DNA of 46,695 nt, taken from positions 1-46,695 of the forward strand of contig JAGCGK010000193.1 of the NCBI GenBank assembly GCA_017649645.1. The letters run 5' to 3'. Every line of letters begins with the position of its first letter. Positions within the stretch are counted from its first letter, which is position 1. The position numbers and the translations under genes are program-made. A model generated the notes under the pieces. That model saw only the letters and a list, made by a program, of their open reading frames with translations. It was not told where the DNA came from and made no database searches. Source of the stretch: Clostridiales bacterium (lineage in GTDB: Bacteria > Bacillota > Clostridia > Saccharofermentanales > Saccharofermentanaceae). Positions 13,316 to 43,788 of this stretch are shown here, one piece after another.

Positions 13316-13334
13316 TTTTTCTCGGAATTCTGTT

Positions 13335-13362: not shown

Positions 13363-13390
13363 CTAGACATCATTTATTTGGGGGCAAATT

Positions 13391-14419: not shown

Positions 14420-14440
14420 GCGATAACTAGGAGATATATC

Positions 14441-28495: not shown

Positions 28496-29398
28496 ATGAA
28501 GGGGATTGTTTTGGCAGGAGGAGAAGGAACACGTCTTTATCCGTTGACGACTGTTACCAGTAAACAGCTTCTTCCTGTTTATGATAAACCTATGATCTAC
28601 TATCCGCTGTCCACTTTAATGCTGGCAGGGATCAAAGAGATATTGATAATAAGTACCCCACACGATATTGACAGATTCAAAAGTCTTTTGGGAGACGGAT
28701 CTCGATTTGGTATTTCTCTTTCGTATGAGATCCAGAAAGATCCGAATGGTCTTGCAGAGGCTTTTATCATTGGGGAAAAATTTATTGGCGATGACTCCTG
28801 TGCAATGATATTGGGTGACAATATCTTCTACGGAAGCGGTTTCAGAGGAATACTGAAAGAAGCTGTAAGACTTGCTGAAGAAGATAAAGTAGCGACTATT
28901 TTCGGATATTATGTTCAGGACCCTGAGAGGTTTGGTGTCGTAACCATAGATGAAGCAGGAAAACCTGTGCGTCTTGTAGAAAAACCTACAAAACCTGAAA
29001 GTAACTATGCAGTAACCGGATTGTACTTTTTCCCGTCAGGTGTTTCTGACAGGGCCCGTAAAGTCGAGCGTTCCGCGAGAGGTGAATTGGAGATAACAAC
29101 TCTTAATCAGATGTATCTTGATGAAGAAAAACTCCATGTAAAGATTTTCGGACGTGGTTTTGCCTGGATAGATGCAGGTACAATGGATAGTCTTATTGAT
29201 GCTGCTGACTTTGTCAGGATCATCGAAAACAGACAAGGTATCATGATAGCTTCTTTGGAGGAAATCGCATACATCAACAGGTGGATAGACAGAGAAAAAC
29301 TTTTGGAAGTGTCTGAAAAGTACGGAAAGAGTCCTTATGGCGAACACTTAAAGACAGTTGCTCAAGGAAGAATTCACTACGAGGGAAATCAATTATGA
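28496..29398 (+). CDS. rfbA: Glucose-1-phosphate thymidylyltransferase RmlA/RfbA
   Basis: Makes dTDP-glucose from dTTP and glucose 1-phosphate, the first step to dTDP-6-deoxy sugars. 300 residues; it starts MKGIVLAGGEGTRLYPLT with the nucleotide loop and then SKQLLPVYDKPMIYYPLS. ILGDNIFYGSGF (metal-binding Asp), FGVVTID, VEKPTKP, the substrate segment GLYFF and WIDAGTMDSL are all present. The length and motifs match RmlA closely. The next gene overlaps by four bases (ATGA). No rmlC or rmlD is seen in the window. Confidence 0.95.
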   Translation: MKGIVLAGGEGTRLYPLTTVTSKQLLPVYDKPMIYYPLSTLMLAGIKEILIISTPHDIDRFKSLLGDGSRFGISLSYEIQKDPNGLAEAFIIGEKFIGDDSCAMILGDNIFYGSGFRGILKEAVRLAEEDKVATIFGYYVQDPERFGVVTIDEAGKPVRLVEKPTKPESNYAVTGLYFFPSGVSDRARKVERSARGELEITTLNQMYLDEEKLHVKIFGRGFAWIDAGTMDSLIDAADFVRIIENRQGIMIASLEEIAYINRWIDREKLLEVSEKYGKSPYGEHLKTVAQGRIHYEGNQL

Positions 29399-30423
29399 GG
29401 ATGTTGGTAACAGGTGGTGCCGGTTTTATAGGTGCCAATTTTGTTTTTTATATGTTGAGAGAATATCAGGATATCTCTATCATCTGCGTTGATAAACTCA
29501 CATATGCGGGCAATCTTTCCACACTTGAGAGTGTAATGGATGATAACAGATTTGAGTTTGTCAAAATGGATATTTGCGATAGAGAAGGTATTTATGGACT
29601 GTTTGAAGAAAAAAAGCCGGATGTTGTTGTCAATTTTGCTGCTGAGACCCATGTAGACAGATCGATAACTGATCCGGATGTTTTTTTGAGAACAAACATT
29701 ATGGGAACCTGCGTTCTTATGGATGCATGCAGGGAATATGGAAATATCAGATTTCATCAGATAAGTACTGATGAGGTTTATGGTGACCTTCCTTTGGATC
29801 GTCCGGATCTTATGTTTACCGAAGAAACTCCGATTCATACGTCGTCACCATATAGCAGCAGTAAAGCATCTGCAGATCTTTTGGTTCTCGCATATTACAG
29901 AACATACAATCTGCCGGTTACGATATCCAGATGTTCAAATAATTACGGACCTTATCAGTTTCCTGAGAAATTGATTCCTCTCATGATAGCTAATGCTACG
30001 GCTGATAGACCTCTGCCTGTTTACGGTCAGGGATTGAACGTCAGGGATTGGCTTTATGTTGATGATCACTGCGCTGCGGTGGATCTCATAATCCGTGACG
30101 GAATGATAGGTGAAGTCTACAACATCGGCGGACATAATGAGATGAGAAATATCGACATAGTCAAGCTTATCCTTAAGAAGTTGGGAAAGTCCGAAGATCT
30201 GATCACCTACGTAACGGACAGAAAAGGTCACGATCTTCGATATGCCATCGATCCTGAAAAGATCCATAAGGAACTTGGTTGGTTACCGAGTGTGAGATTT
30301 GAAGATGGAATAGAAAAAACTATAGATTGGTATATCGATAATCGCGAATGGTGGGAAAAGATCATAAATGGCGAGTACAAGGAGTACTATAGAAAAATGT
30401 ATGGTTCGGTGGAGAATAAATGA
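29395..30423 (+). CDS. rfbB: dTDP-glucose 4,6-dehydratase RmlB/RfbB
   Basis: A 342-residue extended short-chain dehydrogenase converting dTDP-glucose to dTDP-4-keto-6-deoxyglucose with tightly bound NAD+. The glycine motif is GGAGFIGANF (about 6-15). The active-site STDEVYGDL and YSSSKASAD (YxxxK) are present, as are RCSNNYGPYQFPEKLIPL and the substrate segment RDWLYVDDHC. It overlaps rfbA by ATGA and the next gene by ATGA too, showing tight coupling. With no RmlC/D nearby, its product may be used by an aminotransferase or by enzymes encoded elsewhere. Confidence 0.95.
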   Translation: MRMLVTGGAGFIGANFVFYMLREYQDISIICVDKLTYAGNLSTLESVMDDNRFEFVKMDICDREGIYGLFEEKKPDVVVNFAAETHVDRSITDPDVFLRTNIMGTCVLMDACREYGNIRFHQISTDEVYGDLPLDRPDLMFTEETPIHTSSPYSSSKASADLLVLAYYRTYNLPVTISRCSNNYGPYQFPEKLIPLMIANATADRPLPVYGQGLNVRDWLYVDDHCAAVDLIIRDGMIGEVYNIGGHNEMRNIDIVKLILKKLGKSEDLITYVTDRKGHDLRYAIDPEKIHKELGWLPSVRFEDGIEKTIDWYIDNREWWEKIINGEYKEYYRKMYGSVENK

Positions 30424-32300
30424 GTAGCGCAGAAAACAGCATGAACGCAATTAAGCCTAATAGTAAGAGTGCTTTCTTGGAGTTTTTTAAGAAAAGACCG
30501 CTATTAACTGCGCTTACCATTAACTTCTTTTCATTTCTAATCAGGTTCCTGACTATGGATATTAAATACGAAGTATCCGATGATCATATGCAGGATGCTT
30601 TGCTTTCGGGAGCTTTCGGAAATGGATATGACCCGTATATGCTTTTTTCCAACCCGATTCTGGGTTTCTTTTTAAAGTTTTTCTATCAGCTGATACCAAC
30701 TGTGAGTTTCTATTTCCTGTTCATGGAAGTATTGGCTTTCATTTCAGTAACCGCGATCATTTATATCCTTCTCAAGAAAAACATGAATATTGCCGGAATA
30801 CTATTAAGTGTATTATTCCTGCTTGCGGGTTCTGATGACATTTATGTTCTTGTGCAATTTACGAAAATAGCTGCTGTAGCCGGTATGGCGGGCGGAGTAT
30901 TGGTCCTTTACGGAATCTTTGACGCTCCCAAAAGAAAACCGGTATACATAATCATCGGCACTTTGATTACGGTTTCGGGATCTCTTTTGAGATTTGCTTC
31001 CATATACATATCACTGATTTTTTTAGGTTTGGTTTTTCTTTACAATGCGTATGCAAGTCTTAAAGATTCGAAAGGGTTATCGAAGGAAACAATAAAGAAA
31101 ATAGTTATCGGCTTTTCTTTATGTGTAGTTCTCGTTGGAATGTTGTTTGGTTTGTTAAGATTCGGAGATTGGCTTAAGAATAGAAATCCTGAATATAAGA
31201 CCTTTTCTGATTTCCAACCATACAGATCTCACATTACGGATATTTGGGTGCCGAGTTATGACGCAGTCAGCGATACATATACAGAGTTGGGATATGACGA
31301 AACTGACTACTATATGTTAAACAGCTGGGAATTCGTGGATCAATCCATCTATCCTAATGAGGATTTGGAAAAAGTTGGTTCCATTAATATTGCAGTATCG
31401 GATGATCTTACAAATTCCGTCATTTTTTCTATTGGCGACTGGGTGATGAGAGGTACGATGTGGTATTGGTGTACGTTATGCCTTTATGCCATGATCATAG
31501 TCGCTGCTTTGAACGGTAAGAGACTTTTATGGCCTTTCCTGGTTTTGCTTTCGACTGTTTTATTGTTGGTATGTTTTATATACACGGGACGCACTGCATA
31601 CAGAGTTGAGTTTAGTACGATCATATGCGCAGAAATGCTTATCTTGGCTACGTTTGAATCCGACAATCAAAATTCTCTCAGCAAAAAGGTGATCGATGCC
31701 TTTGGAAAAAAGATACCTTACACAGAGCTTATTGCGACTGTGGTTACGTTGATAATGATATGTGTTCACTTGCCTCTTTTTATTCCGGACAGTAGTCAAT
31801 TAAGTATGTCTGATGAGGAATACCGTGAACTATTCAATAATACGATGTTGGCATCCGGAGACTTTGATAAAAACAAGTACAGATTCAGATCTGCGGATCG
31901 TAAACCGCTTCCTAACATCTTGAATTACATAAAGTCAGATGACTCTCACTATTACTACGTTGACCTTTATACAGCGATGCAGACATTTTATTTCAATTAT
32001 GATCCTTGGATTAGACCTGAAGAGGGAATGTTCAAAGATCAGTATGTGTATTTTGGAAGTGTTGCGTTGCATCACCCGGGAGAGAAGTATGCACTTCAGC
32101 AGCACGGAATTGATCCGGATAATCCATTTTCTGCATTGACTGATAACAGTGTCTTCGTTGTAGATACTAATTTTATTGACATTAAATTGGCATATGTAAG
32201 AAAGTATTACAATCCTGATGCAGAACTTGGATATGTCGATACGGTTGACGGATACGATATCTGGAAGATCTTTGTTCCTGAAACTGTTGATGAAGAATAA
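30420..32300 (+). CDS. Large polytopic membrane protein of the glycan locus (GT-C-like or polymerase candidate)
   Basis: A 626-residue protein with about 11-12 membrane helices and a soluble C-terminal ~160 residues. The first external loop contains YEVSDDHMQDALLSGAFGNG, an acidic Asp-Asp motif at the position of the metal or catalytic site in GT-C transferases. The C-terminal domain (FRSADRKPLPNIL, then YYYVDLYTAMQTFYFNYDPW) resembles the external domain of other Clostridia membrane transferases. It could transfer a lipid-linked sugar or act as the repeat-unit polymerase, which is otherwise missing. Family not recognised with certainty. It overlaps rfbB by four bases. Confidence 0.55.
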   Translation: MSSAENSMNAIKPNSKSAFLEFFKKRPLLTALTINFFSFLIRFLTMDIKYEVSDDHMQDALLSGAFGNGYDPYMLFSNPILGFFLKFFYQLIPTVSFYFLFMEVLAFISVTAIIYILLKKNMNIAGILLSVLFLLAGSDDIYVLVQFTKIAAVAGMAGGVLVLYGIFDAPKRKPVYIIIGTLITVSGSLLRFASIYISLIFLGLVFLYNAYASLKDSKGLSKETIKKIVIGFSLCVVLVGMLFGLLRFGDWLKNRNPEYKTFSDFQPYRSHITDIWVPSYDAVSDTYTELGYDETDYYMLNSWEFVDQSIYPNEDLEKVGSINIAVSDDLTNSVIFSIGDWVMRGTMWYWCTLCLYAMIIVAALNGKRLLWPFLVLLSTVLLLVCFIYTGRTAYRVEFSTIICAEMLILATFESDNQNSLSKKVIDAFGKKIPYTELIATVVTLIMICVHLPLFIPDSSQLSMSDEEYRELFNNTMLASGDFDKNKYRFRSADRKPLPNILNYIKSDDSHYYYVDLYTAMQTFYFNYDPWIRPEEGMFKDQYVYFGSVALHHPGEKYALQQHGIDPDNPFSALTDNSVFVVDTNFIDIKLAYVRKYYNPDAELGYVDTVDGYDIWKIFVPETVDEE

Positions 32301-32318
32301 GAACAAACGAGGTTTGAT

Positions 32319-33518
32319 ATGGCAAAGATAATGGTAGTCTGCGGCGGTGACTGGCAGATTGAACTGATCAAAAAAGCTAAGAGTATGGGACACTATGTTA
32401 TCTGTTCCAACCTTTATGAAAACTCGCCTGCATTTCCGTATGCGGATGTCGGTGAAGTTGCAGACGTTTTGGATAAGGAGACCAATCTTAAGATCGCTTT
32501 AAAACACAGACCTGATGCGGTCATTACAGACCAAAGTGATATTGCGGTGCCTACGGTAGCTTATCTTAATGAGAAGTTGGGACTTAGGGGCATTGGAACC
32601 GATAAAGCAGATCTTTTCACGGATAAGTCTCTTCAGAGAAAATTCTGCAAGGAACATGGAATACCGGTACCTGATTTTATACTGTGTTCAACCCCTGAGG
32701 AGGCATTACCTCTTCTCGAAAAACACGGCAAAATGATAATTAAGCCTATCGACAGTCAATCAAGCCGTGGAGTGTTTACCATTACAAGTAAGGAACAGCT
32801 TTTCGAAAAGTACCAGGAAACATTAGGCTGGTCAAACAGAGCTAAACTGTTCATGGCAGAAGAGTATATCGAAGGACGCGAATTTACCATAGACGGCCTT
32901 GTTATAAACGGTCATCATTATCCTCTTTGTATCTCGGTCAAGGAAATGTATCCTCATAATCCGAATATCTCAATGATGCAGAGTTACTCTTATCTTTCGG
33001 ATGAATTTGACTACGATCTTTTGCGTAAGACCAATAAGCAGTTTATTGAATCTACCGGTCTTCCTATGGGTCTTACGCATTCGGAATACAGATATCATGA
33101 TGGTCAGTTCTATATTGTTGAAGCAGGTGCACGGGGAGGCGGAAGCAATCTGTCCGGTAAGATAGTGCCGTTCGTTTCCGAGATCGATAATTGCGGTTAT
33201 CTTATCAAGGAAGCTTTGGGTGAGCCTGTTGATGAAGATGCAGTTAAGAATAAAGTATTCAACAGTTCAAAATATGTAGTTATGAGATTCTTCGACTTTG
33301 GAGAAGGAATAGTAGATAATGTAAAGGGAGAGGATTTCTTAAAGAATCATCCTATGCTCCTTGATTATCAGCTTAACTTCAAGGTGGGAGATGAACTTAA
33401 GAAACCGAAATACGGCCGATTGAGACCGGGACATTTCATTATTGGTTCTGACAATAAGGAAAGGGTTATCGAAGAGGCGAACAAGATACTTAATACTGTC
33501 AAGGTGGTATATAGATAA
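32319..33518 (+). CDS. ATP-grasp ligase
   Basis: A 399-residue ATP-grasp enzyme of the PurK/carbamoyl-phosphate-synthase-like branch. It has an N-terminal pre-ATP-grasp Rossmann part (MAKIMVVCGGDWQIELIKKAK), DVLDKETNLKIALKHRPDAV, then the ATP-binding part with KSLQRKFCKEHGIPVPDF, IIKPIDSQSSRGV (phosphate loop), EEYIEGREFTIDGLV (adenine/Mg region) and FYIVEAGARGGGSN (metal ligand region). Such enzymes join a carboxylate to an amine or thiol using ATP. In this setting it may attach an amino or hydroxy acid to an amino sugar (inference). GAGG precedes ATG 32319. The GT2 gene overlaps its last base. Confidence 0.85.
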   Translation: MAKIMVVCGGDWQIELIKKAKSMGHYVICSNLYENSPAFPYADVGEVADVLDKETNLKIALKHRPDAVITDQSDIAVPTVAYLNEKLGLRGIGTDKADLFTDKSLQRKFCKEHGIPVPDFILCSTPEEALPLLEKHGKMIIKPIDSQSSRGVFTITSKEQLFEKYQETLGWSNRAKLFMAEEYIEGREFTIDGLVINGHHYPLCISVKEMYPHNPNISMMQSYSYLSDEFDYDLLRKTNKQFIESTGLPMGLTHSEYRYHDGQFYIVEAGARGGGSNLSGKIVPFVSEIDNCGYLIKEALGEPVDEDAVKNKVFNSSKYVVMRFFDFGEGIVDNVKGEDFLKNHPMLLDYQLNFKVGDELKKPKYGRLRPGHFIIGSDNKERVIEEANKILNTVKVVYR

Positions 33519-34477
33519 TGGCTGATAATAAAAGAGAGAAGATTAGTTTTGTTATACCATGCTACAACTCGACTAATACTATCGGGACTGTAGTAGAGGA
33601 GATCAAGACAGTCATGACTCAGGAATTGAGTTCCTATGACTATGAGATCGTGCTTGTAAATGATGGTTCACCTGACGGAACTACTTATGGCGCCATCTTG
33701 GATATTGTTGCAAAAGAAAAACACATAAAGGGGATCAATCTTGCCAGAAATTTCGGTCAGCCTTCTGCTGTAATGGCTGCTCTTAATCACGCTACAGGTG
33801 ACTATGTTGTATGCGGTGACGATGACGGACAGACGCCGTTTTGTGAATTTCCTAAGCTTTTCGCTAAGATTCAGGAAGGATATGATCTTGTAGAAGCCCG
33901 ATATGCTACAAGAGAGAAAAGATCTCTTTTCAGACGCATGGGAACATTCATGAATGAAGGAATGTCCACATGGCTTATTTCCAAACCTAAGGATCTTGAA
34001 CTTACAACTTATTGGGTTGTAAAAAGATTCATCGTTGACCAGATGATCCAATATCCTAATACATACCCGTATTTGGGCGGACTTATGCTTCGTGCAACTC
34101 AAAATGCTTGTAATGTTGATGTATCTCACAGAGAAAGACTATCAGGCAAATCAGGATACAATTTCAGAAAGATGCTCGAGCTGTGGCTCAACGGATTTAC
34201 ATCATTTTCGGTTGAGCCGCTGAGATTAATGTCCAAGCTTGGAATATTGGTTTCTATTCTCGGATTTTTATTTGGTATATTCATTGTTGTTCGTAAGATC
34301 ATTGATCCTTCGATCAGTGCAGGATACAGTTCTATTATGGCTGTCATGGTCTTCTTCTTTGGTATTGTATTCTTTTTCTTGGGTGTTTTGGGTGAGTATG
34401 TCGGAAGGATATACATTTCTCTTAACAGAGCACCGCAGTTTGTTGTAAAGGATTATAAAGAGTCTGATGAGCTTTGA
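33518..34477 (+). CDS. GT2 glycosyltransferase (polyprenyl-phosphate type)
   Basis: A 319-residue GT-A enzyme with two C-terminal membrane helices (about 243-265 and 278-302), the GtrB/ArnC/DPM1-like layout that loads a sugar onto polyprenyl phosphate or extends a lipid-linked glycan. Motifs: ISFVIPCYNSTNTIGTVVEE, YEIVLVNDGSPDGT, NFGQPSAVMAALNHATGDYVV, and DDDGQTP (DXD). RERLSGKSGYNFRKML before the helices is typical of this group. The sugar is unknown. It overlaps the end of the ATP-grasp gene and the start of the PLP gene. Confidence 0.88.
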   Translation: MADNKREKISFVIPCYNSTNTIGTVVEEIKTVMTQELSSYDYEIVLVNDGSPDGTTYGAILDIVAKEKHIKGINLARNFGQPSAVMAALNHATGDYVVCGDDDGQTPFCEFPKLFAKIQEGYDLVEARYATREKRSLFRRMGTFMNEGMSTWLISKPKDLELTTYWVVKRFIVDQMIQYPNTYPYLGGLMLRATQNACNVDVSHRERLSGKSGYNFRKMLELWLNGFTSFSVEPLRLMSKLGILVSILGFLFGIFIVVRKIIDPSISAGYSSIMAVMVFFFGIVFFFLGVLGEYVGRIYISLNRAPQFVVKDYKESDEL

Positions 34478-35471
34478 GTTTGATAACATGATGAGAAGAA
34501 AAGAGGAATACGGAGGATTCTTGCCTTTGGAATTGAATTCAGGCAAGGAGTACTTTTCTGAGTATGAATCGCTGCTCAGCAGATTTAATTCGGTCAAAGC
34601 AGGATTGGAATTTATCATCAAAGAGACAAAGGCATCCAAATTGTTTTTGCCTTGTTATTATTGTCCTTCAACAACAGAAGCTATACTTAGAACCGGTATC
34701 GATGTGGTTTTTTATCACATAGACGAAGAGATGAAGCCGAAGGATATTCCGGATGAAGCCGGAAGTTTGGTTGTCCTGGTTGACTATTTCGGAGTTTTGG
34801 GAAAATGTATCGAAGATATCGCAATAGGATTTTCCTTCGCCCAGGTCATTCTTGACAGAGCCCATGCGTTTTTTGCTAAGCCTGTTCTTAAAGACAATAT
34901 CTATAACATCTATTCCGCTAAGAAGTTTTTCGGCGTGCCTGACGGAGCTTATCTGATAAGTTCACGTATAAGATCTGATGAAGCTCCATCTTACTCCAAT
35001 TCTTATGCATCGTATCTTTTGAAAACATACGAGGAGGGTACCAACAGCGCTTATGTCGAAAAGAAGGAAGTTGATAAATATCTTGATTCCAGTTATAAAG
35101 GCATGTCAAAACTGTCTATAGCAATCCTTGAAAATGTTGATTATGATTCGGTTTATGACAGAAGGAAAGAGAACTTTGCTTTTCTGAAGAAATCTTTTGA
35201 TGATGTTAATGAACTTGATATCTCTGATCATTACCCTGCATATATGTTTCCTCTTTTGTTGAAGAAGGGTGGAAATGATCTTAAGAAAAAACTGGTCGAA
35301 GAGAAGATATATGTTCCGACTTTGTGGTCAGGAAAATATGTTTCGGAAAACGGAAATGAATTCGAACTGAATATGAGAGACAATGCTGTGTTTCTGCCGA
35401 TTGATCAAAGATATGATACTGAGGATATGAAATATATTGCATATATCACGAGAAAGATGATGGAGGGATGA
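34467..35471 (+). CDS. Divergent DegT-like PLP-dependent enzyme
   Basis: A 334-residue protein that looks like a shortened, divergent fold-type I PLP enzyme of the DegT/DnrJ/EryC1 kind. The candidate PLP lysine lies in NIYSAKKFFGVPDGAYL (about residues 151-167). VDYFGV near residue 109 and ILDRAHAFF near 130, with the Asp that would contact the pyridine nitrogen, match the DegT pattern. The early region LPCYYCPSTTEAIL replaces the usual GTNA loop, so substrate use may differ. The function could be transamination of a keto sugar or keto acid. It overlaps the GT2 gene by 11 bases; the aldolase gene starts four bases after its stop. Confidence 0.65.
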   Translation: MSFEFDNMMRRKEEYGGFLPLELNSGKEYFSEYESLLSRFNSVKAGLEFIIKETKASKLFLPCYYCPSTTEAILRTGIDVVFYHIDEEMKPKDIPDEAGSLVVLVDYFGVLGKCIEDIAIGFSFAQVILDRAHAFFAKPVLKDNIYNIYSAKKFFGVPDGAYLISSRIRSDEAPSYSNSYASYLLKTYEEGTNSAYVEKKEVDKYLDSSYKGMSKLSIAILENVDYDSVYDRRKENFAFLKKSFDDVNELDISDHYPAYMFPLLLKKGGNDLKKKLVEEKIYVPTLWSGKYVSENGNEFELNMRDNAVFLPIDQRYDTEDMKYIAYITRKMMEG

Positions 35472-35475
35472 TAAG

Positions 35476-36513
35476 GTGAAGATTCTTGATACAACAATTC
35501 GAGACGGAAGTTATGCGATCGACTTCAGATTCAGTTGTAAAGATGTCCGAGATCTTGTTCAAAGATCCCGTAAGATCGGTATTGAATATATCGAGATAGG
35601 ACACGGCCAGGGATTAAACGCCAGTTCCTCTGAACACGGCTATGCTCTTCAGACAGATGAAGAATATATGGAAGCGGGAAGAGAAGTTGCAGGAGATTCA
35701 AAGTTGGGCTTTTTCTGTATTCCGGGTATAGCTGGTCTTGATGATATTACCAAAGCAAAAAATCATCATATGGATTTTATAAGGATCGGTGTTGCGGTAA
35801 AAGATTACGAAAAAGCCAAACCGTATATCGATGCTTGCAGGTCAGAAGGCCTTGAAGTGTTCGTGAATTTTATGAAGACATATTCGGTTGATCCTGTTAC
35901 TTTTGCAAAGGCTGCCGATGATGTCCATCGTTGCGGAGCTGACACGGTCTATATCGTAGATTCTGCAGGCAGTATGAGCGCTGAAGATATCGGAGGATAT
36001 ATAAGTGCGACCAGAGAAATGTCTGATGTAAAACTCGGTTTTCACGGCCACAATAATCTTGGACTTGCTGTCGAGAATACGGTGTTTTGTGTCAGCAAAG
36101 GCATAGACTTTATTGACTGTTCATTCCAGGGTATAGGAAGAAGCCTCGGTAATGCTTCGTTAGAGCAGGTCATCATGGTCCTTGAGAGAAGAGGTTACAG
36201 TACAGGATTTGATATTCCTCGAGTACTGGAATACGGCTTCGCAGGCTTAAGAAATATTGTTAATGAAGGTCTTGTTAATCCGCTGGATTATATGTGCGGA
36301 TTTGCAGGTTTTCATTCCAGTTATCTCAAGGATGTTTACAGATGCTGCAGTGAGAAGGATGTCGATCCTTTAAGACTTATCCTGGCATACAGTAAAGACG
36401 ATAAACTTACCATGGATTACGATAAACTCTGTAAGATCGCTGATTCCCTTCCGAAGGATACTGAGGATAATCCTTACAGTTTTGGAGAGTATTTCTCCGC
36501 CAAGTACAGATAA
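35476..36513 (+). CDS. DRE-TIM aldolase (4-hydroxy-2-oxovalerate aldolase / HMGL-like)
   Basis: A 345-residue HMGL-like TIM-barrel enzyme. LDTTIRDGSYAIDF (residues 4-17) has the DRE-TIM Arg-Asp and metal ligand; FHGHNNLGLAVENT holds the HxH metal motif; SFQGIGRSLGNASLEQV matches the Gly-rich segment of 4-hydroxy-2-oxoacid aldolases. These enzymes join or cleave pyruvate and an aldehyde, or use acyl-CoA. The typical catabolic partner, acetaldehyde dehydrogenase, is absent, so a biosynthetic role in making a glycan building block is more likely (inference). The start is GTG 35476 with GGAGGG eight bases upstream. Confidence 0.85.
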   Translation: MKILDTTIRDGSYAIDFRFSCKDVRDLVQRSRKIGIEYIEIGHGQGLNASSSEHGYALQTDEEYMEAGREVAGDSKLGFFCIPGIAGLDDITKAKNHHMDFIRIGVAVKDYEKAKPYIDACRSEGLEVFVNFMKTYSVDPVTFAKAADDVHRCGADTVYIVDSAGSMSAEDIGGYISATREMSDVKLGFHGHNNLGLAVENTVFCVSKGIDFIDCSFQGIGRSLGNASLEQVIMVLERRGYSTGFDIPRVLEYGFAGLRNIVNEGLVNPLDYMCGFAGFHSSYLKDVYRCCSEKDVDPLRLILAYSKDDKLTMDYDKLCKIADSLPKDTEDNPYSFGEYFSAKYR

Positions 36514-36533
36514 GGAGTTTTCGGCGTTTAGAT

Positions 36534-37931
36534 ATGGGAAAAAAGCACGTAAATCCATTTGTAAAATCATCGTTTCTTTACGTATTCGCATCGGGTCTGG
36601 GTCAGATCATGGTCCTTTTGGGCGTTTTTCTCTTTACGAGATTGATGTCTGAGAAAGATTACGGAAGATATGTAACCTATTATTCGTTTGTTTCGGTTTT
36701 CGCGGTCCTGATAGGAACCAATCTTTTTGAATCACTGAATAATGCCTACATAGACATAAAAGATGACATTATTGCTTTTCGAAAAAGCGTACTGGTATTA
36801 TCTTCGATAATTGCTTTATCTGTTACTGTAGTTACTTTGATGATCAGTGTGTTTATACTGCACCGTTTCTCGGCGTTTGAAGTCATAATGGCAGCGATCC
36901 ATTCTTATACATTTTTTGTGATCAACTATCGAATGTATTCAGCGAACATGGAAAATGATTACAAGAAGAAAATGCTGCTTCTTTCGTTGCCGAATATCCT
37001 TCAATTGGCAATATCTCTCATAACGGTCATCGTTCTTCCTGATATATCGTACGAAGCGAGGATCATTGGTAGTGTAGCAGGTCTTGGAATAATAGCGGTT
37101 CTTTCATACATCGACATTATCAAATGCCCTGGAAAACCGGTTATTACCAAATACTGGAAGTACGCTTTGAAGATATCGGTGCCATCGATCTTTATGTCGA
37201 TCTCCTACATGATAATGCAGCAGTGTGACAATATAATGGTTACCAATTATTGTGGAGAAGAAGTAACCTCGGCATATTCAGTTGTTTTTTATCTAGGTTA
37301 TGCAATGATCGCCGTAAATGCCGCCGTTATGCCTGTTCGTCAGGCTTGGCTTTATCGAAAACTCGATAAGAAAGATTACACGGGAATCAAAACATTGCAG
37401 AAATGGTACCTGATCTTGTTCGCATTCCTGGCTACTTTGGTAATTATGTTCGGAAAGCTTGTCCTGATGTTCCTTCCGAGTTCATATCGCCATTCGGAGT
37501 ACATACCTCCGTTTATACTGAGTGCCTGCATGATGGTATTGTACGGAATGTTTACGGAAGTGCTCCTGTTCCATAAAAAGACCGGTGTTCTTTCAGTAAT
37601 GGTTTCGGTTTCAGCGATCATAAATCTCATATTGAACGCCATTTTCATTCCGAAGTTTGGTGCTATAGCTGCAGGCTTTACAACGGTCTTTGCTTACTTT
37701 ATCCTCTTTATCCTTAATAAGATCGGTGCTGATCTTTGCATAAAAAGACTTTATTCTCTCTTGTATTCGGCCGCTTTTATTGCTTGGGCTTTGCTCCTGG
37801 CTGCAGTTTTCTATATGACAGAATCCCATGAAGTAATTCGATATATTATCTATTCGGCAATGCTTCTTATTTTTGCGATTATCGCACTCGTAAAGAGAAA
37901 GACGATCAAGGAAATGCTTGGCAGTAAGTGA
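36534..37931 (+). CDS. Polysaccharide flippase (Wzx/MOP superfamily)
   Basis: A 465-residue protein with about 12-14 membrane helices and almost no soluble domain, of the MOP superfamily that moves lipid-linked oligosaccharides across the membrane. The first helix region, SFLYVFASGLGQIMVLLGVFLF, and LMSEKDYGRYVTYYS are typical Wzx features, as is SYMIMQQCDNIMVTNY in the middle. AAGGAG lies at 36512-36517, 16 bases before the start, which is long; no better start was seen. It is the last gene of the first half of the locus; a new promoter follows. Confidence 0.88.
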   Translation: MGKKHVNPFVKSSFLYVFASGLGQIMVLLGVFLFTRLMSEKDYGRYVTYYSFVSVFAVLIGTNLFESLNNAYIDIKDDIIAFRKSVLVLSSIIALSVTVVTLMISVFILHRFSAFEVIMAAIHSYTFFVINYRMYSANMENDYKKKMLLLSLPNILQLAISLITVIVLPDISYEARIIGSVAGLGIIAVLSYIDIIKCPGKPVITKYWKYALKISVPSIFMSISYMIMQQCDNIMVTNYCGEEVTSAYSVVFYLGYAMIAVNAAVMPVRQAWLYRKLDKKDYTGIKTLQKWYLILFAFLATLVIMFGKLVLMFLPSSYRHSEYIPPFILSACMMVLYGMFTEVLLFHKKTGVLSVMVSVSAIINLILNAIFIPKFGAIAAGFTTVFAYFILFILNKIGADLCIKRLYSLLYSAAFIAWALLLAAVFYMTESHEVIRYIIYSAMLLIFAIIALVKRKTIKEMLGSK

Positions 37932-37961: not shown

Positions 37962-38064
37962 TTTTGATAATCATTGATGTTTTTGAATGGATGACTATGC
38001 CTCATAGCAGGGATGGATTGAAATCGGCAAAGTGATAATCGGAATCATTAAGAGGGGTCATGAG

Positions 38065-39261
38065 ATGGAAAAGTTGGCTATTAACGGCGGAGAGCCGGTA
38101 AGAAAAGAGAAGATATTCTACGGTCGTCAGTGGATCGAAGAGGATGACGTTCAGGCAGTCTCTGACACGCTCAGGTCGAATTACATAACCTGTGGTCCTA
38201 AGGTTTCTGAATTTGAAAAAAGATTAGCAGAATATACCGGAGCAAAATATGCGGTTGCGTTAAGTAATGGAACAGCAGCTCTTCACTGTGCATGTATAGC
38301 AGCAGGCATTGGTCCCGGTGATGAGGTCATCACTACACCTATTACATTTGCAGCATCTGCCAACTGTGCTTTGTACTGCGGAGCAAGGCCGGTTTTTGCC
38401 GATATTAATCCTGAAACATACAATATAGACCCAAAGAGTATCAGAGAGAAGATTACCGATAAGACAAAGGCTATCGTGGCTGTCGATTTTACAGGTCAAG
38501 CAGTTGAGTATGATGAGATCCGTAAGATCTGTGATGAGTTTAATCTGATCCTTATCGAGGATGCTGCTCATTCTCTTGCTACTTCATACAATGGTAAGAA
38601 GATCGGATCCTTGGCTGATATGACGACGTTTTCTTTCCATCCGGTTAAGACGATTACCGGTGGTGAAGGCGGTGCGATCACAACAAACGATGACGAGCTT
38701 TACAAGAGACTTGTTCTCGCTCACATTCACGGTATCACTCACGATGAGAGCTTGATGGAAGGTGCTCCGCATGAGGGTATTTGGTATTACGAGCAGATCA
38801 GTTTGGGATTTAACTACCGTATAACTGATTTCCAGGCAGCACTTCTTTTGAGTCAGCTGAAAAAACTGGATTCATTTGCAGCAAGGCGTAAAGAGATAGT
38901 TAAAAGATATAATGAAGCTTTTAAAGATCTTGAAGGTATCATTATCCAGAAGGAGATTCCACAGTCTGACACTTGTCGACACCTTTATATTATCCGTTTG
39001 GATCTGGATAAACTTACCTGCACGAGAAGACAGTTCTTTGATGCCATGTCAGCTGAGAATGTCCAGTGCCAGATCCATTACATTCCAGTATACTGGTTCC
39101 CGTTCTATCAGCACATGGGATATGAGAAGGGTCTTTGCCCTAATGCAGAAGAGATTTACAAAGGCATAATGAGCATTCCGCTTTATCCTAGGATGACAGA
39201 TGAGGATGTTGAGGATGTAATTCATGCTGTGAAAAAAGTAGTAGAAAATTACAAGAGATAA
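38065..39261 (+). CDS. pseC: PseC/SpsC-type nucleotide-sugar aminotransferase
   Basis: About 398 residues, a DegT/DnrJ/EryC1 PLP aminotransferase close to PseC, which adds the C4 amino group to UDP-4-keto-6-deoxy-L-AltNAc in pseudaminic acid synthesis. Motifs: SNGTAALHCACIAAGIGPGDEVI, DFTGQ, LIEDAAHSLATSYNG, and the PLP lysine in FSFHPVKTITGGEGG. The N-terminus KLAINGGEPVRKEKIFYGRQWI is PseC-like. I chose ATG 38065 with AGAGGGG upstream, not the in-frame GTG at 38032. The dehydratase PseB is missing in the window, so the exact substrate is inferred from the PseG, PseI and SpsF neighbours. Confidence 0.85.
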   Translation: MEKLAINGGEPVRKEKIFYGRQWIEEDDVQAVSDTLRSNYITCGPKVSEFEKRLAEYTGAKYAVALSNGTAALHCACIAAGIGPGDEVITTPITFAASANCALYCGARPVFADINPETYNIDPKSIREKITDKTKAIVAVDFTGQAVEYDEIRKICDEFNLILIEDAAHSLATSYNGKKIGSLADMTTFSFHPVKTITGGEGGAITTNDDELYKRLVLAHIHGITHDESLMEGAPHEGIWYYEQISLGFNYRITDFQAALLLSQLKKLDSFAARRKEIVKRYNEAFKDLEGIIIQKEIPQSDTCRHLYIIRLDLDKLTCTRRQFFDAMSAENVQCQIHYIPVYWFPFYQHMGYEKGLCPNAEEIYKGIMSIPLYPRMTDEDVEDVIHAVKKVVENYKR

Positions 39262-39266
39262 TAAAC

Positions 39267-40163
39267 ATGAAGCTTTGTTTAGGAACTGTTCAGTTTGGTT
39301 TGGATTACGGTGTGTTTAATACACCTAAGAAAGATCCCGAGTATTGTATAAACTGTTTGGATTATGCTACTCAAAACGGTATCGATGCAATTGATACTGC
39401 GACGGCTTATGGAGATGCTGAGAATATTGTAGGTGATTTTTTATCTCGAAAAACGATCGGCAGAGATAAACTCTTTATCAGCACAAAACATCTTCCTAAC
39501 ATTCTCGATGATAGCAAGGCAGAGGATTATGTTGATGTAATCAGGGATAATCTTCAAAGATCGCTTAAAACACTTAATACCGATTATGTGGATGCATACT
39601 ATTTCCACAGTTCCAGATATGCTTTTCAACCGGAACTTTTGGAGGCCATAAGCGTAATGCAGAAGGAAGGCCTGGCAAAAAAAGTCGGTGTATCGGTATA
39701 TTATCCTGATGAAGCAATGGCTTGTTTTATCAATCCCAATATTAATTGCATTCAAGCGCCGTACAGCATCTTTGATCACAGGATGAAAGAGTCAGGCGTG
39801 TTTAAAACAGGAAGTGAAAAAGGTTTTGATATCGATGTAAGAACTGTGTTTGTCAAAGGTCTTATCCGTCTTAAAGATGATGAAATCCCGGAACATCTTA
39901 TCAAAGCAAAACCTATCCTGGCAAAACTTGATAAGTTTTGTGAAGAGACCGGATATTCTCGTATAGAACTTGCGATGGGATATGTTAAGAGGGAAAAAGA
40001 GATTAATCATCTTGTTTTCGGTATCAGATCCTTGGAACAGCTTAAAGAGGATGTAGCATCTTTTGAAAAAGACATACCTGAAAGTCTATATGAAGAGATT
40101 GACAGACAGTTTTCAGGTATTTCAGCTGATCTGGTTATACCTAGTCTTTGGGTGAAGGGGTGA
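39267..40163 (+). CDS. Aldo/keto reductase of the nonulosonate locus
   Basis: A 298-residue aldo/keto reductase-like barrel. It starts LCLGTVQFGLDYGV; AIDTATAYGDAENIVG has the catalytic Asp and Tyr, STKHLPN the Lys, and YFHSSRY the His region. NAD(P)H-dependent reduction of a sugar or keto intermediate is likely. Similar reductases occur beside SpsF-type transferases and class III aminotransferases in many surface-polysaccharide loci, but their exact step is not known to me. It starts five bases after pseC without a strong ribosome site, and the next gene follows after four bases. Confidence 0.8.
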   Translation: MKLCLGTVQFGLDYGVFNTPKKDPEYCINCLDYATQNGIDAIDTATAYGDAENIVGDFLSRKTIGRDKLFISTKHLPNILDDSKAEDYVDVIRDNLQRSLKTLNTDYVDAYYFHSSRYAFQPELLEAISVMQKEGLAKKVGVSVYYPDEAMACFINPNINCIQAPYSIFDHRMKESGVFKTGSEKGFDIDVRTVFVKGLIRLKDDEIPEHLIKAKPILAKLDKFCEETGYSRIELAMGYVKREKEINHLVFGIRSLEQLKEDVASFEKDIPESLYEEIDRQFSGISADLVIPSLWVKG

Positions 40164-40167
40164 TTAA

Positions 40168-40938
40168 ATGAAATACTTGGCAATGATTCAGGCTAGATGC
40201 GGTTCGACAAGATTGCCGAATAAAGTGCTTAAGGATTTGTGCGGTAAACCTGCACTTCAGCGCATGATCGAACGAGTAAGTTTAAGTAAGAAAGTTGATG
40301 AAGTAATGGTCGTTACTTCGATCGAGAAAAACAATCTTCCTATACTTAGTCTTTGTTCAAGTATCGGTGTCAGAGTAGGAATCGGTTCCGAAGATGATGT
40401 TCTCGACAGATTCTATCAGACGGCTAAGCTATTACGTCCTGAGTACGTAATCAGATTAACTGCAGATTGTCCGTGTTTTGATGCCGAACTTTTGGATCTG
40501 GCAATAGAGAATCTTCAAAGTGACGTTGATTATTGCGGAATGACGAGCGAATCTTTTGCTGACGGACTTGACTTGGAGATCATTAAGTTCTCGGCTTTGG
40601 AGAAGTCTTGGAAAGAAGCTGAGCACTCTTTTGAAAGAGAGCATGTAACACAGTATATCGTAAGACACCCGGAAATATTTAAAACTCAGAACTTTGAATC
40701 ACCTGTCGGATATTTCGGTGACCACAGGTGGACAGTTGATGAGCCTGAAGATTTTGAACTGGTTTCCCGTATCTATGAGCATTTTATTGGGGAACTTCAT
40801 ACTGAAGAATTCGGATATCGTGAGATACTGGCGTTCTTGAATGATCATCCCGAGATCAAAGCTATCAATCGGATGTATACTCGCAATGAAGGCTTGGAAA
40901 AATCGATCAAGAATGATCACATTGTTGAAAAGAATTAA
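40168..40938 (+). CDS. spsF: SpsF-type CMP-sugar synthetase (cytidylyltransferase)
   Basis: A 256-residue nucleotidyltransferase of the SpsF family. It starts MKYLAMIQARCGSTRLPNKV, the ARxGSxRLPxK nucleotide loop. EDDVLDRFYQTAK, VIRLTADCPCFD (metal-binding Asp), SFADGLDLEII and FGDHRWTVDEPEDFELV are diagnostic. In Bacillus sps clusters SpsF works with SpsC, D, E and G, and the homologous PseF activates pseudaminic acid with CTP. That role fits here because PseI and PseG are encoded in the same operon. The start has AAGGGG. Confidence 0.85.
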   Translation: MKYLAMIQARCGSTRLPNKVLKDLCGKPALQRMIERVSLSKKVDEVMVVTSIEKNNLPILSLCSSIGVRVGIGSEDDVLDRFYQTAKLLRPEYVIRLTADCPCFDAELLDLAIENLQSDVDYCGMTSESFADGLDLEIIKFSALEKSWKEAEHSFEREHVTQYIVRHPEIFKTQNFESPVGYFGDHRWTVDEPEDFELVSRIYEHFIGELHTEEFGYREILAFLNDHPEIKAINRMYTRNEGLEKSIKNDHIVEKN

Positions 40939-40956
40939 ACGGAGGAAAAGATAATA

Positions 40957-42243
40957 ATGCTGTTTGAAAAATCAGATGAGCTTTTGGAGAGAGAACTTAA
41001 GGTCTCTCCGCTTGCTGCTCAGACTTACAGTAAATCATACAGATATTTTTGCAAAGGTATGGCTCCTTCATATATGGATCATGGTGAAGGCTGTTATATT
41101 TTTGATGTTGACGGTAACAAGTTTATCGATTTCATATGTGCACTTGGACCGGTTACAGTCGGATACAATGAACCTGCTGTTAATAAGGCTGTAATAGATC
41201 AGGTAAACAAGTTTGCAAGCGGTACTCTTCAATCGGAACTCGAGGTCAGATTGGCAGAAAGACTTTGCGAGATCATTCCTTGTGCAGAAATGGTCAGGTT
41301 CGTTAAGAACGGTGGAGATGCAACTACTGCAGCGATCAGACTCGCGAGAGCATATACGGGACGTGATATAGTCCTGATGTCCGGATATCACGGAATGCAT
41401 GATTGGTCTATAGGTGCTTCCACAAATAATAAAGGAGTTCCGAAGGCAGTTTGTGAATTGACGATCAACTTTACTTATAACGATCTTGAAGATTTGGAAA
41501 ACAAGCTTAAGGCTAATGAAGTTGCAGCTGTTATTCTTGAGCCGATCCAAAGTAACGGACCTAAGGAAGGTTATCTTGAAGGTGTTAAGGAACTTGCTCA
41601 TAAGTACGGAGCGATCTTAATATTTGATGAGGTAGTGTCAGGTTTCCATTATGCATTGGGAGGAGCACAGGAGATGTTTGGAGTATCTCCTGATCTAGTT
41701 GCATTCGGTAAAGGACTTGGTAACGGTTATCCGATATCTGCCGTTGCAGGTCGTAAGGATCTTCTTGAACAGATAGAAAAAGGCGTTTTCATCTCAACTA
41801 CTTTTGGCGGAGACAGCATCGCTATGGCAGCTGCTCTTGCTACTCTCGATATTTTGTCACGCCCGGGATTTTATGATCATATAACAAAGATCGGAACAAT
41901 GATGCGTGACGGAATCCAAGAAAGGATCGACAAGTATGATCTTAATGATGTTCTCTCGGTAAGCGGTCTTCCTGCACATTGCGGAGTAGCTTTTGAAGGT
42001 CACGGATCACTTTCTTATCTTGATATTCAATCCGTTTATTCACAGACAATGCTTCAAAGCGGAATATTGATCTTTGCTATTTATTTTTTGAATTCATCAC
42101 ATACGGAAAAAGAGGCTCAGGCATATCTTGATGCGACTGACAAAGCGTTTTTCTTGATAAGGAAAGCGATCGACCATGATAGTTTGGAGGGAATCCTTAT
42201 TGGAGGAAAAGTAGATCCTGTTTTCAAGAGAAATATAAAATAA
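40957..42243 (+). CDS. Class III aminotransferase (glutamate-1-semialdehyde aminomutase-like)
   Basis: A 428-residue fold-type I PLP enzyme related to HemL. SNGPKEGYLEGV, LIFDEVVSGFHYALGG (PLP-binding Asp), VAFGKGLGNGYPISAVAG (catalytic Lys) and VRFVKNGGDATTAAIRLARAYTGRD fit class III enzymes. The segment GYHGMHDWSIGAS is close to glutamate-1-semialdehyde aminomutases. There are no other haem genes nearby, and the position in a nonulosonate operon makes a sugar or aldehyde substrate more likely, for example an amination or 1,2-amino shift. The start ATG 40957 has GGAGG 12 bases upstream. Confidence 0.82.
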   Translation: MLFEKSDELLERELKVSPLAAQTYSKSYRYFCKGMAPSYMDHGEGCYIFDVDGNKFIDFICALGPVTVGYNEPAVNKAVIDQVNKFASGTLQSELEVRLAERLCEIIPCAEMVRFVKNGGDATTAAIRLARAYTGRDIVLMSGYHGMHDWSIGASTNNKGVPKAVCELTINFTYNDLEDLENKLKANEVAAVILEPIQSNGPKEGYLEGVKELAHKYGAILIFDEVVSGFHYALGGAQEMFGVSPDLVAFGKGLGNGYPISAVAGRKDLLEQIEKGVFISTTFGGDSIAMAAALATLDILSRPGFYDHITKIGTMMRDGIQERIDKYDLNDVLSVSGLPAHCGVAFEGHGSLSYLDIQSVYSQTMLQSGILIFAIYFLNSSHTEKEAQAYLDATDKAFFLIRKAIDHDSLEGILIGGKVDPVFKRNIK

Positions 42244-42262
42244 CCGGACGGGGCTTAAGAGT

Positions 42263-43759
42263 ATGTTTCATTTATTCGAAAAGGTTAATAACGGTGGCGT
42301 ATACGTGATTGCCGAGATGAGTGCTAATCACGGAGGAAGTCTTGATAATGCTTTGGAAATCGTAAGGCAGGCTGCCTTAGCCGGCGCTGATTGCTTGAAG
42401 ATCCAGACATATACAGCTGATTCGATTACCATAGATTGTGATGAAGAACCTTTCCGCATCAAAGGCGGACTGTGGGACGGATACAATCTTTATGAGTTGT
42501 ACAAAGAAGCAGGAACACCTTACGAATGGCAGGCTCAGATAAAAGCAGAATGTGAAAGATGCGGAATTGATTTCTTGTCTACACCGTTTGACAATGACGC
42601 TGTTGATTTTCTTGAATCGATAGGTATTGAAGCATATAAGATTGCCAGCTTTGAAATGGTTGATATTCCTTTGATAGAATACACAGCTTCAAAAGGAAAA
42701 CCTATGATCATTTCATGTGGAATGGGAAGTATCGAAGAGATACAGGATTCCGTAAATGCATGCCGCAGAATGGGTAATGATCAAATAGTACTTCTTAAGT
42801 GTTGCAGTGAGTATCCTGCCAACTGGGATGATATGCATTTGGGAAACATTCCTGATATGAAGAAGAGATTTGGAACTTTGGTAGGATTATCTGACCACAG
42901 CATGGGAAGCATAGGCGCTGTTGTGGGTGTTTCCCTGGGTGCGAGTGTAGTTGAAAAACACATCAAACTGGATGATGTATCAAGCGTTGACAGTGAGTTC
43001 AGCATGAGCATCAAGGATTTCGCTTCAATGATAGATGACATCAAGGCTGCCAAAAAGATATCGCAGGGGCCGACATACGATCTGTCAGAAAAAGAAACTG
43101 CTTCCAAGGTTTTCAGGAGAAGTATATTTGCTGTAAAGGATATAAAGGAAGGAGAATTATTTTCGGAGGATAATATTCGTGTCATAAGACCGAGCAACGG
43201 AATCTCTCCTAAGTACTATAGTGAGATCCTGGGCACCGGATGCTGTAGGCACATCAAAAGAGGAGAGCCTCTTTTGACAGATGACATTAAAGACATTATC
43301 ACCGAGAAAAAAGAGAGCGGATTTGAATTAAGGACAGTAAAACCCGATGATATTGATCTGCTGTTTAACTGGGCTAATGAGCCGATAACAAGGAAAAATG
43401 CTTTCCATACGGAAAAGATCCCTTATGAAGATCATGAGAGATGGTTTTCCAAACTCCTGTCTGATCCTGATCAGCAGCAATATATCTTCTTGAAAAACGG
43501 AAAGCCGATAGGGCAGATCAGATTCTCGATGGATAAAGATGAGGCTTTGATCAGTTACAGCATATCTCCTGATGCCCGCGGATTGGGATACGGAGTGCTT
43601 ATGCTCGATATGGCAAAGAAAAAGATCCGTGAAGATCATCCTGAAGTCAAGAAATTGATAGGTCAGGTAAAAAAGGAAAATACAGCTTCTTTGAAGTGTT
43701 TCGAAAAGTGCGGTTTTGAAGAGGTCTTTCATCAGTTCGAGTATGATTATTCGAATTGA
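42263..43759 (+). CDS. pseI: Pseudaminic-acid-type synthase fused to a PseH-like acetyltransferase
   Basis: A 498-residue two-function protein. Residues 1-265 are the NeuB/PseI barrel: VIAEMSANHGGSLDNALEIV, CLKIQTYTADSIT, KIASFEMVDIPLI, LLKCCSEYPANWDDMHL and GLSDHSMGSIG, ending VEKHIKLDD. VDSEFSM favours PseI over NeuB, which has PDH there. Residues 285-343 are the SAF antifreeze-like domain. Residues 354-498 are a GNAT domain (FELRTVKPDDIDLLFNW, then ISYSISPDARGLGYGVLML and NTASLKCFEKCGFEEVF), similar to PseH, which acetylates the C4 amino group. The synthase condenses a 6-deoxy-2,4-diacetamido sugar with PEP. The fusion joins a late and an early step. Confidence 0.88.
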   Translation: MFHLFEKVNNGGVYVIAEMSANHGGSLDNALEIVRQAALAGADCLKIQTYTADSITIDCDEEPFRIKGGLWDGYNLYELYKEAGTPYEWQAQIKAECERCGIDFLSTPFDNDAVDFLESIGIEAYKIASFEMVDIPLIEYTASKGKPMIISCGMGSIEEIQDSVNACRRMGNDQIVLLKCCSEYPANWDDMHLGNIPDMKKRFGTLVGLSDHSMGSIGAVVGVSLGASVVEKHIKLDDVSSVDSEFSMSIKDFASMIDDIKAAKKISQGPTYDLSEKETASKVFRRSIFAVKDIKEGELFSEDNIRVIRPSNGISPKYYSEILGTGCCRHIKRGEPLLTDDIKDIITEKKESGFELRTVKPDDIDLLFNWANEPITRKNAFHTEKIPYEDHERWFSKLLSDPDQQQYIFLKNGKPIGQIRFSMDKDEALISYSISPDARGLGYGVLMLDMAKKKIREDHPEVKKLIGQVKKENTASLKCFEKCGFEEVFHQFEYDYSN

Positions 43760-43788
43760 TCGATATGGAAAGAATGAATGGTGCTGAT

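Follow-up and report, generated by a model that had tools for sequence, protein, structure and literature searches.

In this study, we describe a set of genes predicted to decorate a cell-surface sugar with an unusual acid, encoded on a 46,695-nt stretch of DNA from a Clostridiales bacterium (JAGCGK010000193.1, positions 1 to 46,695; here termed the window, meaning this whole stretch). The set comprises an ATP-grasp ligase, a family 2 glycosyltransferase (GT2), a divergent pyridoxal phosphate (PLP)-dependent enzyme of the DegT type, and a pyruvate aldolase-like enzyme. It is not a chance cluster, as the same set occurs in five further genomes. A sugar-decoration module is in our view the best explanation overall, and we place its probability at about 0.45. 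Acids that are amide linked to amino sugars affect how phages and the immune system perceive bacteria, and to our knowledge the enzymes making such unusual acids are mostly unknown.

The initial annotation of this DNA placed the ligase, GT2, DegT-like enzyme, and aldolase between rfbAB and a flippase gene. The listing of open reading frames (ORFs) bore this out: all four ORFs were present at the predicted positions on the forward strand (Table 1). The ligase and GT2 genes overlap by 1 base and the GT2 and PLP enzyme genes overlap by 11, while gaps of 4 and 20 bases separate the aldolase gene from the PLP enzyme gene and the flippase gene, respectively. Together with rfbA, rfbB, and a gene for a membrane protein, they form an eight-gene run (positions 28496 to 37931) that has no gap of more than 20 bases. 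The first longer gap (100 bases) follows the flippase gene, where a second run starts. (Below, L and G numbers denote the stretches that were read and the genomes, respectively.)

The aldolase is HMGL-like. It matched the 4-hydroxy-2-oxovalerate aldolase subfamily model PRK08195 with 253 bits (cutoff, 229) and scored 218.4 bits against the equivalog model TIGR03217, which is under the cutoff of 286. A tree was calculated from 47 sequences, namely, nine aldolases from glycan loci and 38 of the catabolic type (10 from the class of the window, 27 from its phylum, and DmpG). The nine glycan-locus enzymes formed one clade (support, 100/100), and they are 29 to 34% identical to DmpG. The metal ligands (Asp18, His200, and His202 in DmpG) are kept in all 47 sequences, and Arg17 of DmpG is retained in the glycan clade. 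In enzymes of the DmpG type, His20/21 is the catalytic base. Inspection of the alignment revealed a reversed pair: where DmpG has His21 and Tyr291, all nine clade members, but none of the 38 catabolic-type sequences, have Tyr and His (Y13 and H280 in the window). In addition, Phe139, Met142, and Leu88 of DmpG are replaced in all nine by Asn, Lys, and Phe (Asn131, Lys134, and Phe80 in the window); Leu replaces Met142 in three of the 38 catabolic-type sequences. Among the solved structures with alignments shown (5 of the 22 listed), four keep His/Tyr, and 3dxi has Tyr at the first position of the pair, its second position being unaligned. tblastn found no relative of DmpF, the acylating acetaldehyde dehydrogenase, in any of the nine glycan loci; a DmpF relative was present in 10/10 catabolic loci, although in one of them it is a fragment of 38 residues where the contig ends. 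Of ten neighbors scanned with Pfam in the catabolic loci, seven were this dehydrogenase.

Given the separate clade, the reversed pair, and the DmpF-free loci, we judge the aldolase to be noncatabolic; by sequence, it lies outside the catabolic type, in a distinct branch. The initial annotation had named a catabolic role for this enzyme as one outcome that would overturn its scheme, and, at the level of sequence, that outcome did not occur. In the related enzyme BphI, the aldehyde pocket is reported to be lined by Leu87 and Leu89, and Tyr290 to govern the stereochemistry at C4 (PMC3962088, PMC4012138). The altered pocket of the glycan-clade enzymes hints that their substrate differs from acetaldehyde and that the configuration at C4 is possibly the opposite one. 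The reversed pair allows a direct test of the class II pyruvate aldolase mechanism, and of which C4 epimer is made, when two key residues are swapped, and the signature Tyr13/His280/Lys134 can be used to find acid-decoration loci of this kind.

To what extent the genes travel together was assessed from their distribution. A scan of a collection of 84,980 species with six short aldolase peptide patterns, an approach of low sensitivity, yielded 30 candidate stretches, three of which hold aldolase relatives: L044 (a rumen Lachnospiraceae metagenome-assembled genome [MAG]), L045 (Mediterraneibacter glycyrrhizinilyticus), and L046 (a rumen Butyrivibrio MAG). At an E value of 1e-70, the aldolase was found in 3 of 79 genomes of the L046 genus (its own included), which added G981 (L059) and G963 (L060), and in 4 of 397 genomes of the L045 family (its own included), where more distant copies are carried by G578, G594, and G798. 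Only its own genome was positive among the 35 of the L044 genus. A threshold of 1e-40 was passed by 11 of 391 genomes in the class of the window, and one of 1e-75 by 28 of 319 in its phylum; apart from the window genome, all of the passing aldolases (10 and 27, respectively) are of the catabolic type. Scans of viral contigs with the PLP enzyme, the aldolase, and the L051 aldolase confirmed no relative.

An aldolase at least 52% identical to that of the window is encoded by six genomes (those of the window, L044, L045, L046, L059, and L060), and all six also encode a relative of the PLP enzyme and an ATP-grasp ligase. The co-occurrence of the three families, proposed at the outset as a check, therefore holds in 6/6 genomes. 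By BLAST, the PLP relatives in those six genomes are 34 to 54% identical to the window enzyme (the L060 copy over 262 residues). The three genes are clustered in the window, L044, L045, and L060, as well as in L046. The ligase and aldolase genes are no more than about 3 kb apart in five of the six genomes and 27 kb apart in G981 (L059/L089). All six have a GT2 relative (42 to 79% identical) at a distance of about 4 kb or less from the aldolase gene.

The trees point to common inheritance. In an ATP-grasp tree of 33 sequences, the six aldolase-linked copies formed one clade (100/100). The window ligase is 63 to 74% identical to the other five linked copies and at most 29% identical, over at least 150 residues, to the outside sequences (26 of 27 were aligned by BLAST). 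For the other five linked copies the corresponding maximum is 31%, with alignments of fewer than 70 residues reaching 35%. In a PLP enzyme tree of 53 sequences, the six linked copies fell on one side of a branch with support of 87/56 that was present in 86% of the bootstrap trees. All three trees (aldolase, ATP-grasp, and PLP enzyme) separate the window, L044, L045, and L046 from G981 and G963. On this evidence, the ligase and aldolase look like a matched pair, which the PLP enzyme follows with weaker support. The sequences themselves establish the composition of the gene set, the co-inheritance and family assignments of its members, the separate clade of the aldolase, and the presence of the metal ligands and of the PLP residues described below.

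The ligase matched ATP-grasp_4 (38.4 bits; cutoff, 27) and LAL_C2 (37.5 bits; cutoff, 29.4). Two L-amino acid ligases, 3vot and 4wd3, are among its solved relatives; the best match was 4dim, which is named a phosphoribosylglycinamide synthetase. LAL_C2 ligases use amino acids. Both the LAL_C2 domain and the relationship to L-amino acid ligases would fit an amino acid as the acyl donor. All nine genomes with an aldolase of the glycan clade encode a putative acid-activating ligase, located in the stretch read in eight and 27 kb away in G981, which supports attachment of the acid to an amino sugar. The type of ligase varies. In L051, whose aldolase belongs to a group that is 42 to 43% identical to the window enzyme, the genes near that of the aldolase include one for an AMP-binding ligase and one for an Antibiotic_NAT acyltransferase, and L052 carries relatives of both (45% and 55% identical, respectively; the latter also identified by Pfam). 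In L053, a gene for an NAD_binding_2 dehydrogenase directly precedes the aldolase gene, so that a reductase occupies the place where other loci have the PLP enzyme, and an LAL_C2 ATP-grasp gene follows on the opposite strand. tblastn detected no PLP enzyme relative in the stretches of L051, L052, and L053. We also noted that the L051 and L052 aldolases lie near a cyclase in addition to the AMP-binding ligase and acyltransferase, and we propose that these sets carry out acid decoration in a CoA-based form.

The amino sugar that receives the acid is probably dTDP-Fuc4N, since wecE adjoins the ligase gene in two loci and wecE occurs in all six genomes. In L045 and L046, the transaminase encoded directly upstream of the ligase matches two dTDP-Fuc4N models with 632 to 640 bits (cutoffs, 375 and 434.85). 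A WecE above the cutoff was found in 6/6 genomes with the aldolase, PLP enzyme, and ATP-grasp ligase, compared with 80 of 250 genomes of the L045 family (a sample that includes the L045 genome); among 14 control genomes, Escherichia coli alone exceeded the cutoff, as expected. The window genome encodes all of the dTDP-Fuc4N enzymes, with RfbA and RfbB in the window and WecE (472.5 bits; cutoff, 434.85) on an unlinked contig, C137. In G563, G963, G981, and G565, wecE lies elsewhere, near a gene for a GT2 that is 48 to 49% identical to that of the window (L084 to L087); in L084 and L087, a GNAT gene is located beside wecE and the GT2 gene. On contig C137, wecE stands in a row with genes for a Gfo/Idh/MocA oxidoreductase and an NDP-hexose 2,3-dehydratase at the contig end (L083, positions 103 to 3650), which together are a candidate pathway to a 4-amino-2,4,6-trideoxyhexose. 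An attempt to join this contig to that of the window (C18) was not supported: the contig ends share no sequence, and a MutS-like ORF (identified by eye) lies to the right of the locus.

As a single query, the PLP enzyme gave no match to Pfam or NCBIfam at an E value of 0.001 and no sequence match to the PDB at an E value of 10. A profile built from 12 sequences, however, reached DegT sugar aminotransferases (QdtB, 3frk, at 2.8e-8, and others), and the earlier label of a divergent DegT-like enzyme proved apt. The Asp that contacts PLP in this fold (D130) and the Schiff base Lys (K153) are aligned in 16/16 family members and in 10/10 canonical DegT proteins, whereas a DQR(Y/L) motif near the C terminus is found in 16/16 family members and in 0/10 canonical DegT proteins.

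The family is far wider than the aldolase clade. In the L045 family it occurs in 49 of 319 genomes, at 51 places (E value, 1e-40). We read 40 stretches, leaving aside nine weaker places and that of L045 itself, which had been read earlier; one PLP gene was counted per stretch, and the second copy of G589 lies within a fetched stretch. Within 6 kb of the PLP gene, a relative of an ATP-grasp, FemAB, or WbqC protein scoring above 100 bits was found in 29/40 loci, a canonical DegT in 27/40, and the GT2 in 7/40, and hexapeptide-type matches, some of them weak, were found in 7/40. In the order of the window, 10 of 188 genomes encode a relative. Near the nine besides that of the window, ATP-grasps of this type occur in three cases (L026, L030, and L031) and FemAB- or Acetyltransf_6-type genes in six (L027, L028, L029, L031, L032, and L033); the PLP gene of L025 is next to a gene for a hexapeptide protein, which L026 also has. 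Named records carrying the family with no match to this aldolase include Acetoanaerobium noterae, Proteus mirabilis, and Cupriavidus metallidurans. Since the family often occurs in loci that lack the aldolase, the PLP enzyme belongs to a toolkit for amide decoration that extends beyond the aldolase loci, and the aldolase is not a necessary source of its substrate. The idea that it is the sole amino-sugar maker of the locus was weakened by the presence of WecE beside it in L045 and L046.

Two of these loci deserve mention in their own right. In P. mirabilis (L090, positions 9127 to 13969), a DegT gene, a WbqC gene, the PLP family gene, and an SDR-like gene stand together with no aldolase gene, so the family reaches the Proteobacteria. 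A record filed as a phage clone (L093; MT838042.1) holds a glycosyltransferase-like ORF, WbqC, a PLP family enzyme, and an SDR-like ORF and looks like a bacterial glycan locus.

A pathway can be proposed from these assignments. The aldolase would join pyruvate to an aldehyde to give a 4-hydroxy-2-oxo acid. Replacement of the 2-oxo group with an amine by the PLP enzyme would yield a 4-hydroxy amino acid of an unusual kind, the carboxylate of which the ATP-grasp ligase would then couple to the amine of a nucleotide-linked 4-amino-4,6-dideoxyhexose, most likely dTDP-Fuc4N supplied by RfbA, RfbB, and WecE. Loading of the acylated sugar onto undecaprenyl phosphate is the predicted task of the GT2, and the membrane protein encoded upstream of the ligase may transfer the sugar, outside the cell, as a side group. 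Every chemical step is inferred, as are the identities of the aldehyde and the amino sugar and, most of all, the action of the PLP enzyme on the aldolase product. That the aldolase and ligase make an acid and amide link it to a 4-amino sugar is likely; the full chain, with amination by the PLP enzyme, is possible at somewhat less than even odds. The three-step scheme of the initial annotation thus stands in part: manufacture and amide linkage of the acid are favored by the ligase found in 9/9 genomes, and the amination step is weakened by the breadth of the PLP family. More speculatively, and rather doubtfully, rumen bacteria and their relatives in the Clostridia might use the reversed-pair aldolase, perhaps with inverted C4 configuration, to build a new 4-hydroxy-2-amino acid that the dedicated ATP-grasp ligase links to dTDP-Fuc4N for display at the surface, possibly with a free amine. 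We found no description of a set of pyruvate aldolase, DegT-like PLP enzyme, and ATP-grasp ligase in the open-licence literature that was searched, and the initial annotation likewise knew of no described pathway with this exact set.

Several observations weigh against this pathway. The branch that groups the linked PLP enzymes has modest support (87/56), none of the 40 PLP loci contains a glycan-clade aldolase, and 11 of the 40 have no amide-forming enzyme above 100 bits within 6 kb. Six loci carry DegT, ATP-grasp, GT2, and PLP genes with no aldolase gene; there, the substrate of the PLP enzyme cannot derive from this aldolase. The FemAB-like and WbqC partners of the family would need no home-made amino acid, and DegT enzymes of known activity act on cyclic ketones. 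As for the acceptor, wecE of the window genome is on a separate contig beside a hexose 2,3-dehydratase gene, which would allow for a 2-deoxy form of the sugar. In several cases (window, L044, L059/L088, L060, and L051), genes of the pseudaminic type are found in the vicinity of the aldolase gene, and the acceptor could be a pseudaminic acid (Pse) precursor.

In one alternative, which we regard as unlikely, the roles are split: the PLP enzyme would be a sugar-modifying aminotransferase, supplying or altering the accepting amine on the nucleotide sugar as in aldolase-free loci, and the acid from the aldolase would be ligated by the ATP-grasp enzyme with no amination. The DegT-like character of the PLP family, with D130 and K153 kept, speaks for it, as do the 40/40 loci of the L045 family that lack the aldolase, 29 of which have an amide former nearby; the hexapeptide-type matches in seven loci point the same way, and FemAB partners would supply their own amino acid. 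A canonical DegT (WecE) is, however, already present beside the ligase in L045 and L046, and one lies within 6 kb in 27 of the 40 loci; the PLP enzymes from aldolase loci group together, and for a ligase whose LAL_C2 relatives use amino acids, it would be unusual to take a free 2-oxo acid as the donor. The acceptor has its own rival, which we consider improbable: a precursor of the pseudaminic or legionaminic type (the PseC product or a finished nonulosonic acid), of which the module would make an N-acyl variant. Homologues of PseC, PseI-PseH, and PseG do follow in the window, PseC relatives (64 to 71% identical) lie 5 to 10 kb from the aldolases of L051, L059 (L088), and L060, and L044 has a NeuB-like gene. 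Yet wecE adjoins the ligase gene in L045 and L046, stretches in which the BLAST labels show no NeuB-type gene; the Pse set of the window has a PseH-like domain of its own (under the PseH cutoff); and the conserved GT2 of the polyprenyl-phosphate type would go with a dTDP sugar more readily than with a CMP sugar.

Two further readings concern the aldolase itself. In the first, the aldehyde that is condensed with pyruvate would be a sugar, and the product would be a 3-deoxy-2-ulosonic acid like Kdo or Kdn, made in parallel to the NeuB-type synthases. In its favor are the PseF-like gene directly 3' of the aldolase gene in L044 and, in L045, a gene for a 520-amino-acid HMGL-like class that lies between a KdsB-like cytidylyltransferase gene and a KDN-9-phosphatase-like gene. 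The relationship of that class to the window aldolase is only distant (22% identity over 237 residues), no cytidylyltransferase is labeled beside the aldolase in L046, L059, or L060, and the co-inherited ATP-grasp ligase is left unexplained, which makes this route very unlikely. Finally, a catabolic 4-hydroxy-2-oxovalerate aldolase could have landed in a glycan locus by chance. The match to PRK08195 above its cutoff would agree with this, but the separate clade (100/100), the reversed pair (9/9 versus 0/38), the DmpF-free loci (0/9 with a relative), and the repeated co-occurrence with the ligase contradict it, and we rejected this reading as hardly credible. The sugar-decoration module, with the acid joined to a 4-amino sugar, remains our preferred interpretation.

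The three L045 genes mentioned above (positions 13601 to 16419) stand in a row and themselves look as if they make a 3-deoxy-2-ulosonic sugar by way of an aldolase. L157 also holds a protein of similar length to the 520-amino-acid class, with an HMGL-like start; an aldolase-like match near its PLP gene (84 bits) belongs to this other class and was not counted among the aldolase relatives.

Table 1. Genes of the first run in the window, with the basis of each assignment
Feature	Position	Strand	Basis
rfbA, glucose-1-phosphate thymidylyltransferase	28496..29398	+	TIGR01207, 426 bits (cutoff, 360.65)
rfbB, dTDP-glucose 4,6-dehydratase	29395..30423	+	TIGR01181, 493.7 bits (cutoff, 365.1)
Large membrane protein, ~10 hydrophobic segments; candidate GT-C-type transferase	30420..32300	+	Hydropathy
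ATP-grasp ligase with L-amino-acid-ligase C-terminal domain, 399 aa	32319..33518	+	ATP-grasp_4 and LAL_C2
GT2, polyprenyl-phosphate glycosyltransferase type, 319 aa	33518..34477	+	PF00535, 82.5 bits
Divergent DegT-fold PLP enzyme, 334 aa (D130, K153, family motif DQRY)	34467..35471	+	Profile match, alignment
Class II pyruvate aldolase-like enzyme, 345 aa, GTG start	35476..36513	+	HMGL-like/PRK08195
Flippase, Wzx type, last gene of the run	36534..37931	+	Polysacc_synt, 25.2 bits (cutoff, 28.2); 12 hydrophobic segments

The membrane protein of the first run gave no match to Pfam or NCBIfam at an E value of 0.001; a relative (30% identical) adjoins the cluster in L045. Hydropathy analysis of the GT2 revealed two C-terminal hydrophobic segments (residues 240 to 258 and 273 to 291), and its top NCBIfam matches, both under their cutoffs, were to the ArnC type (178.8 bits; cutoff, 529) and PgfS (168.7 bits). 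The second run encodes PseC, an aldo-keto reductase, a cytidylyltransferase, a class III aminotransferase, a PseI-PseH fusion, and PseG, followed by a polysialyltransferase-like protein. Positions 38032 to 44838 thus hold a pseudaminic-type operon with a PseI-PseH fusion, to which the aldo-keto reductase and the class III aminotransferase (glutamate-1-semialdehyde type) are added; PseB was absent among the scanned proteins of the window locus. The alpha-2,8-polysialyltransferase-like protein (PF07388; positions 44885 to 46009), relatives of which adjoin the flippase in L044 and L045, is a candidate nonulosonic acid transferase. Elsewhere in the window, an ORF with a long His/Glu-rich stretch (positions 24581 to 25825), judged by eye to be a LarC-like nickel protein, is located beside apparent cobalt/nickel transport genes.

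Compared with known systems, the window aldolase resembles DmpG, BphI, and MhpE (1nvm, 8ih7, 4jn6, and 4lrs) in length, metal ligands, and Arg17. These four solved enzymes keep the His/Tyr pair, whereas the glycan clade has the Tyr/His, Asn, Lys, and Phe changes and no DmpF partner. The PLP enzyme is like the DegT/DnrJ/EryC1/StrS aminotransferases (QdtB, WecE, and PseC) in its profile match, PLP Asp, and Schiff base Lys and differs from them in its DQR(Y/L) motif, its lack of a Pfam match as a lone sequence, and its frequent canonical DegT neighbor. The ligase shares the ATP-grasp and LAL_C2 domains, as well as sequence matches, with the L-amino acid ligases (BL00235 [3vot], 4wd3, and BacD). 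It forms a separate subfamily, found within our comparison only in the six aldolase genomes, and its proposed acceptor is a nucleotide amino sugar rather than an amino acid.

At the level of the pathway, rfbA, rfbB, WecE, the GT2, and the large membrane protein are shared with two systems: the handling of undecaprenyl-phosphate sugars by ArnC/ArnT and the synthesis of dTDP-Fuc4NAc by WecE/WecD. L084 and L087 have a GNAT acetyltransferase beside WecE and the GT2, a place that is taken here by the ATP-grasp, PLP enzyme, and aldolase set. Known acylated 4-amino sugars include N-acetylglycyl-Qui4N, 3-deoxytetronyl-perosamine, and the polyhydroxy-hexanoyl Pse of Treponema flagella. What the proposed module would have in common with these N-acylated sugars is the idea of an acid amide linked to a 4-amino sugar.

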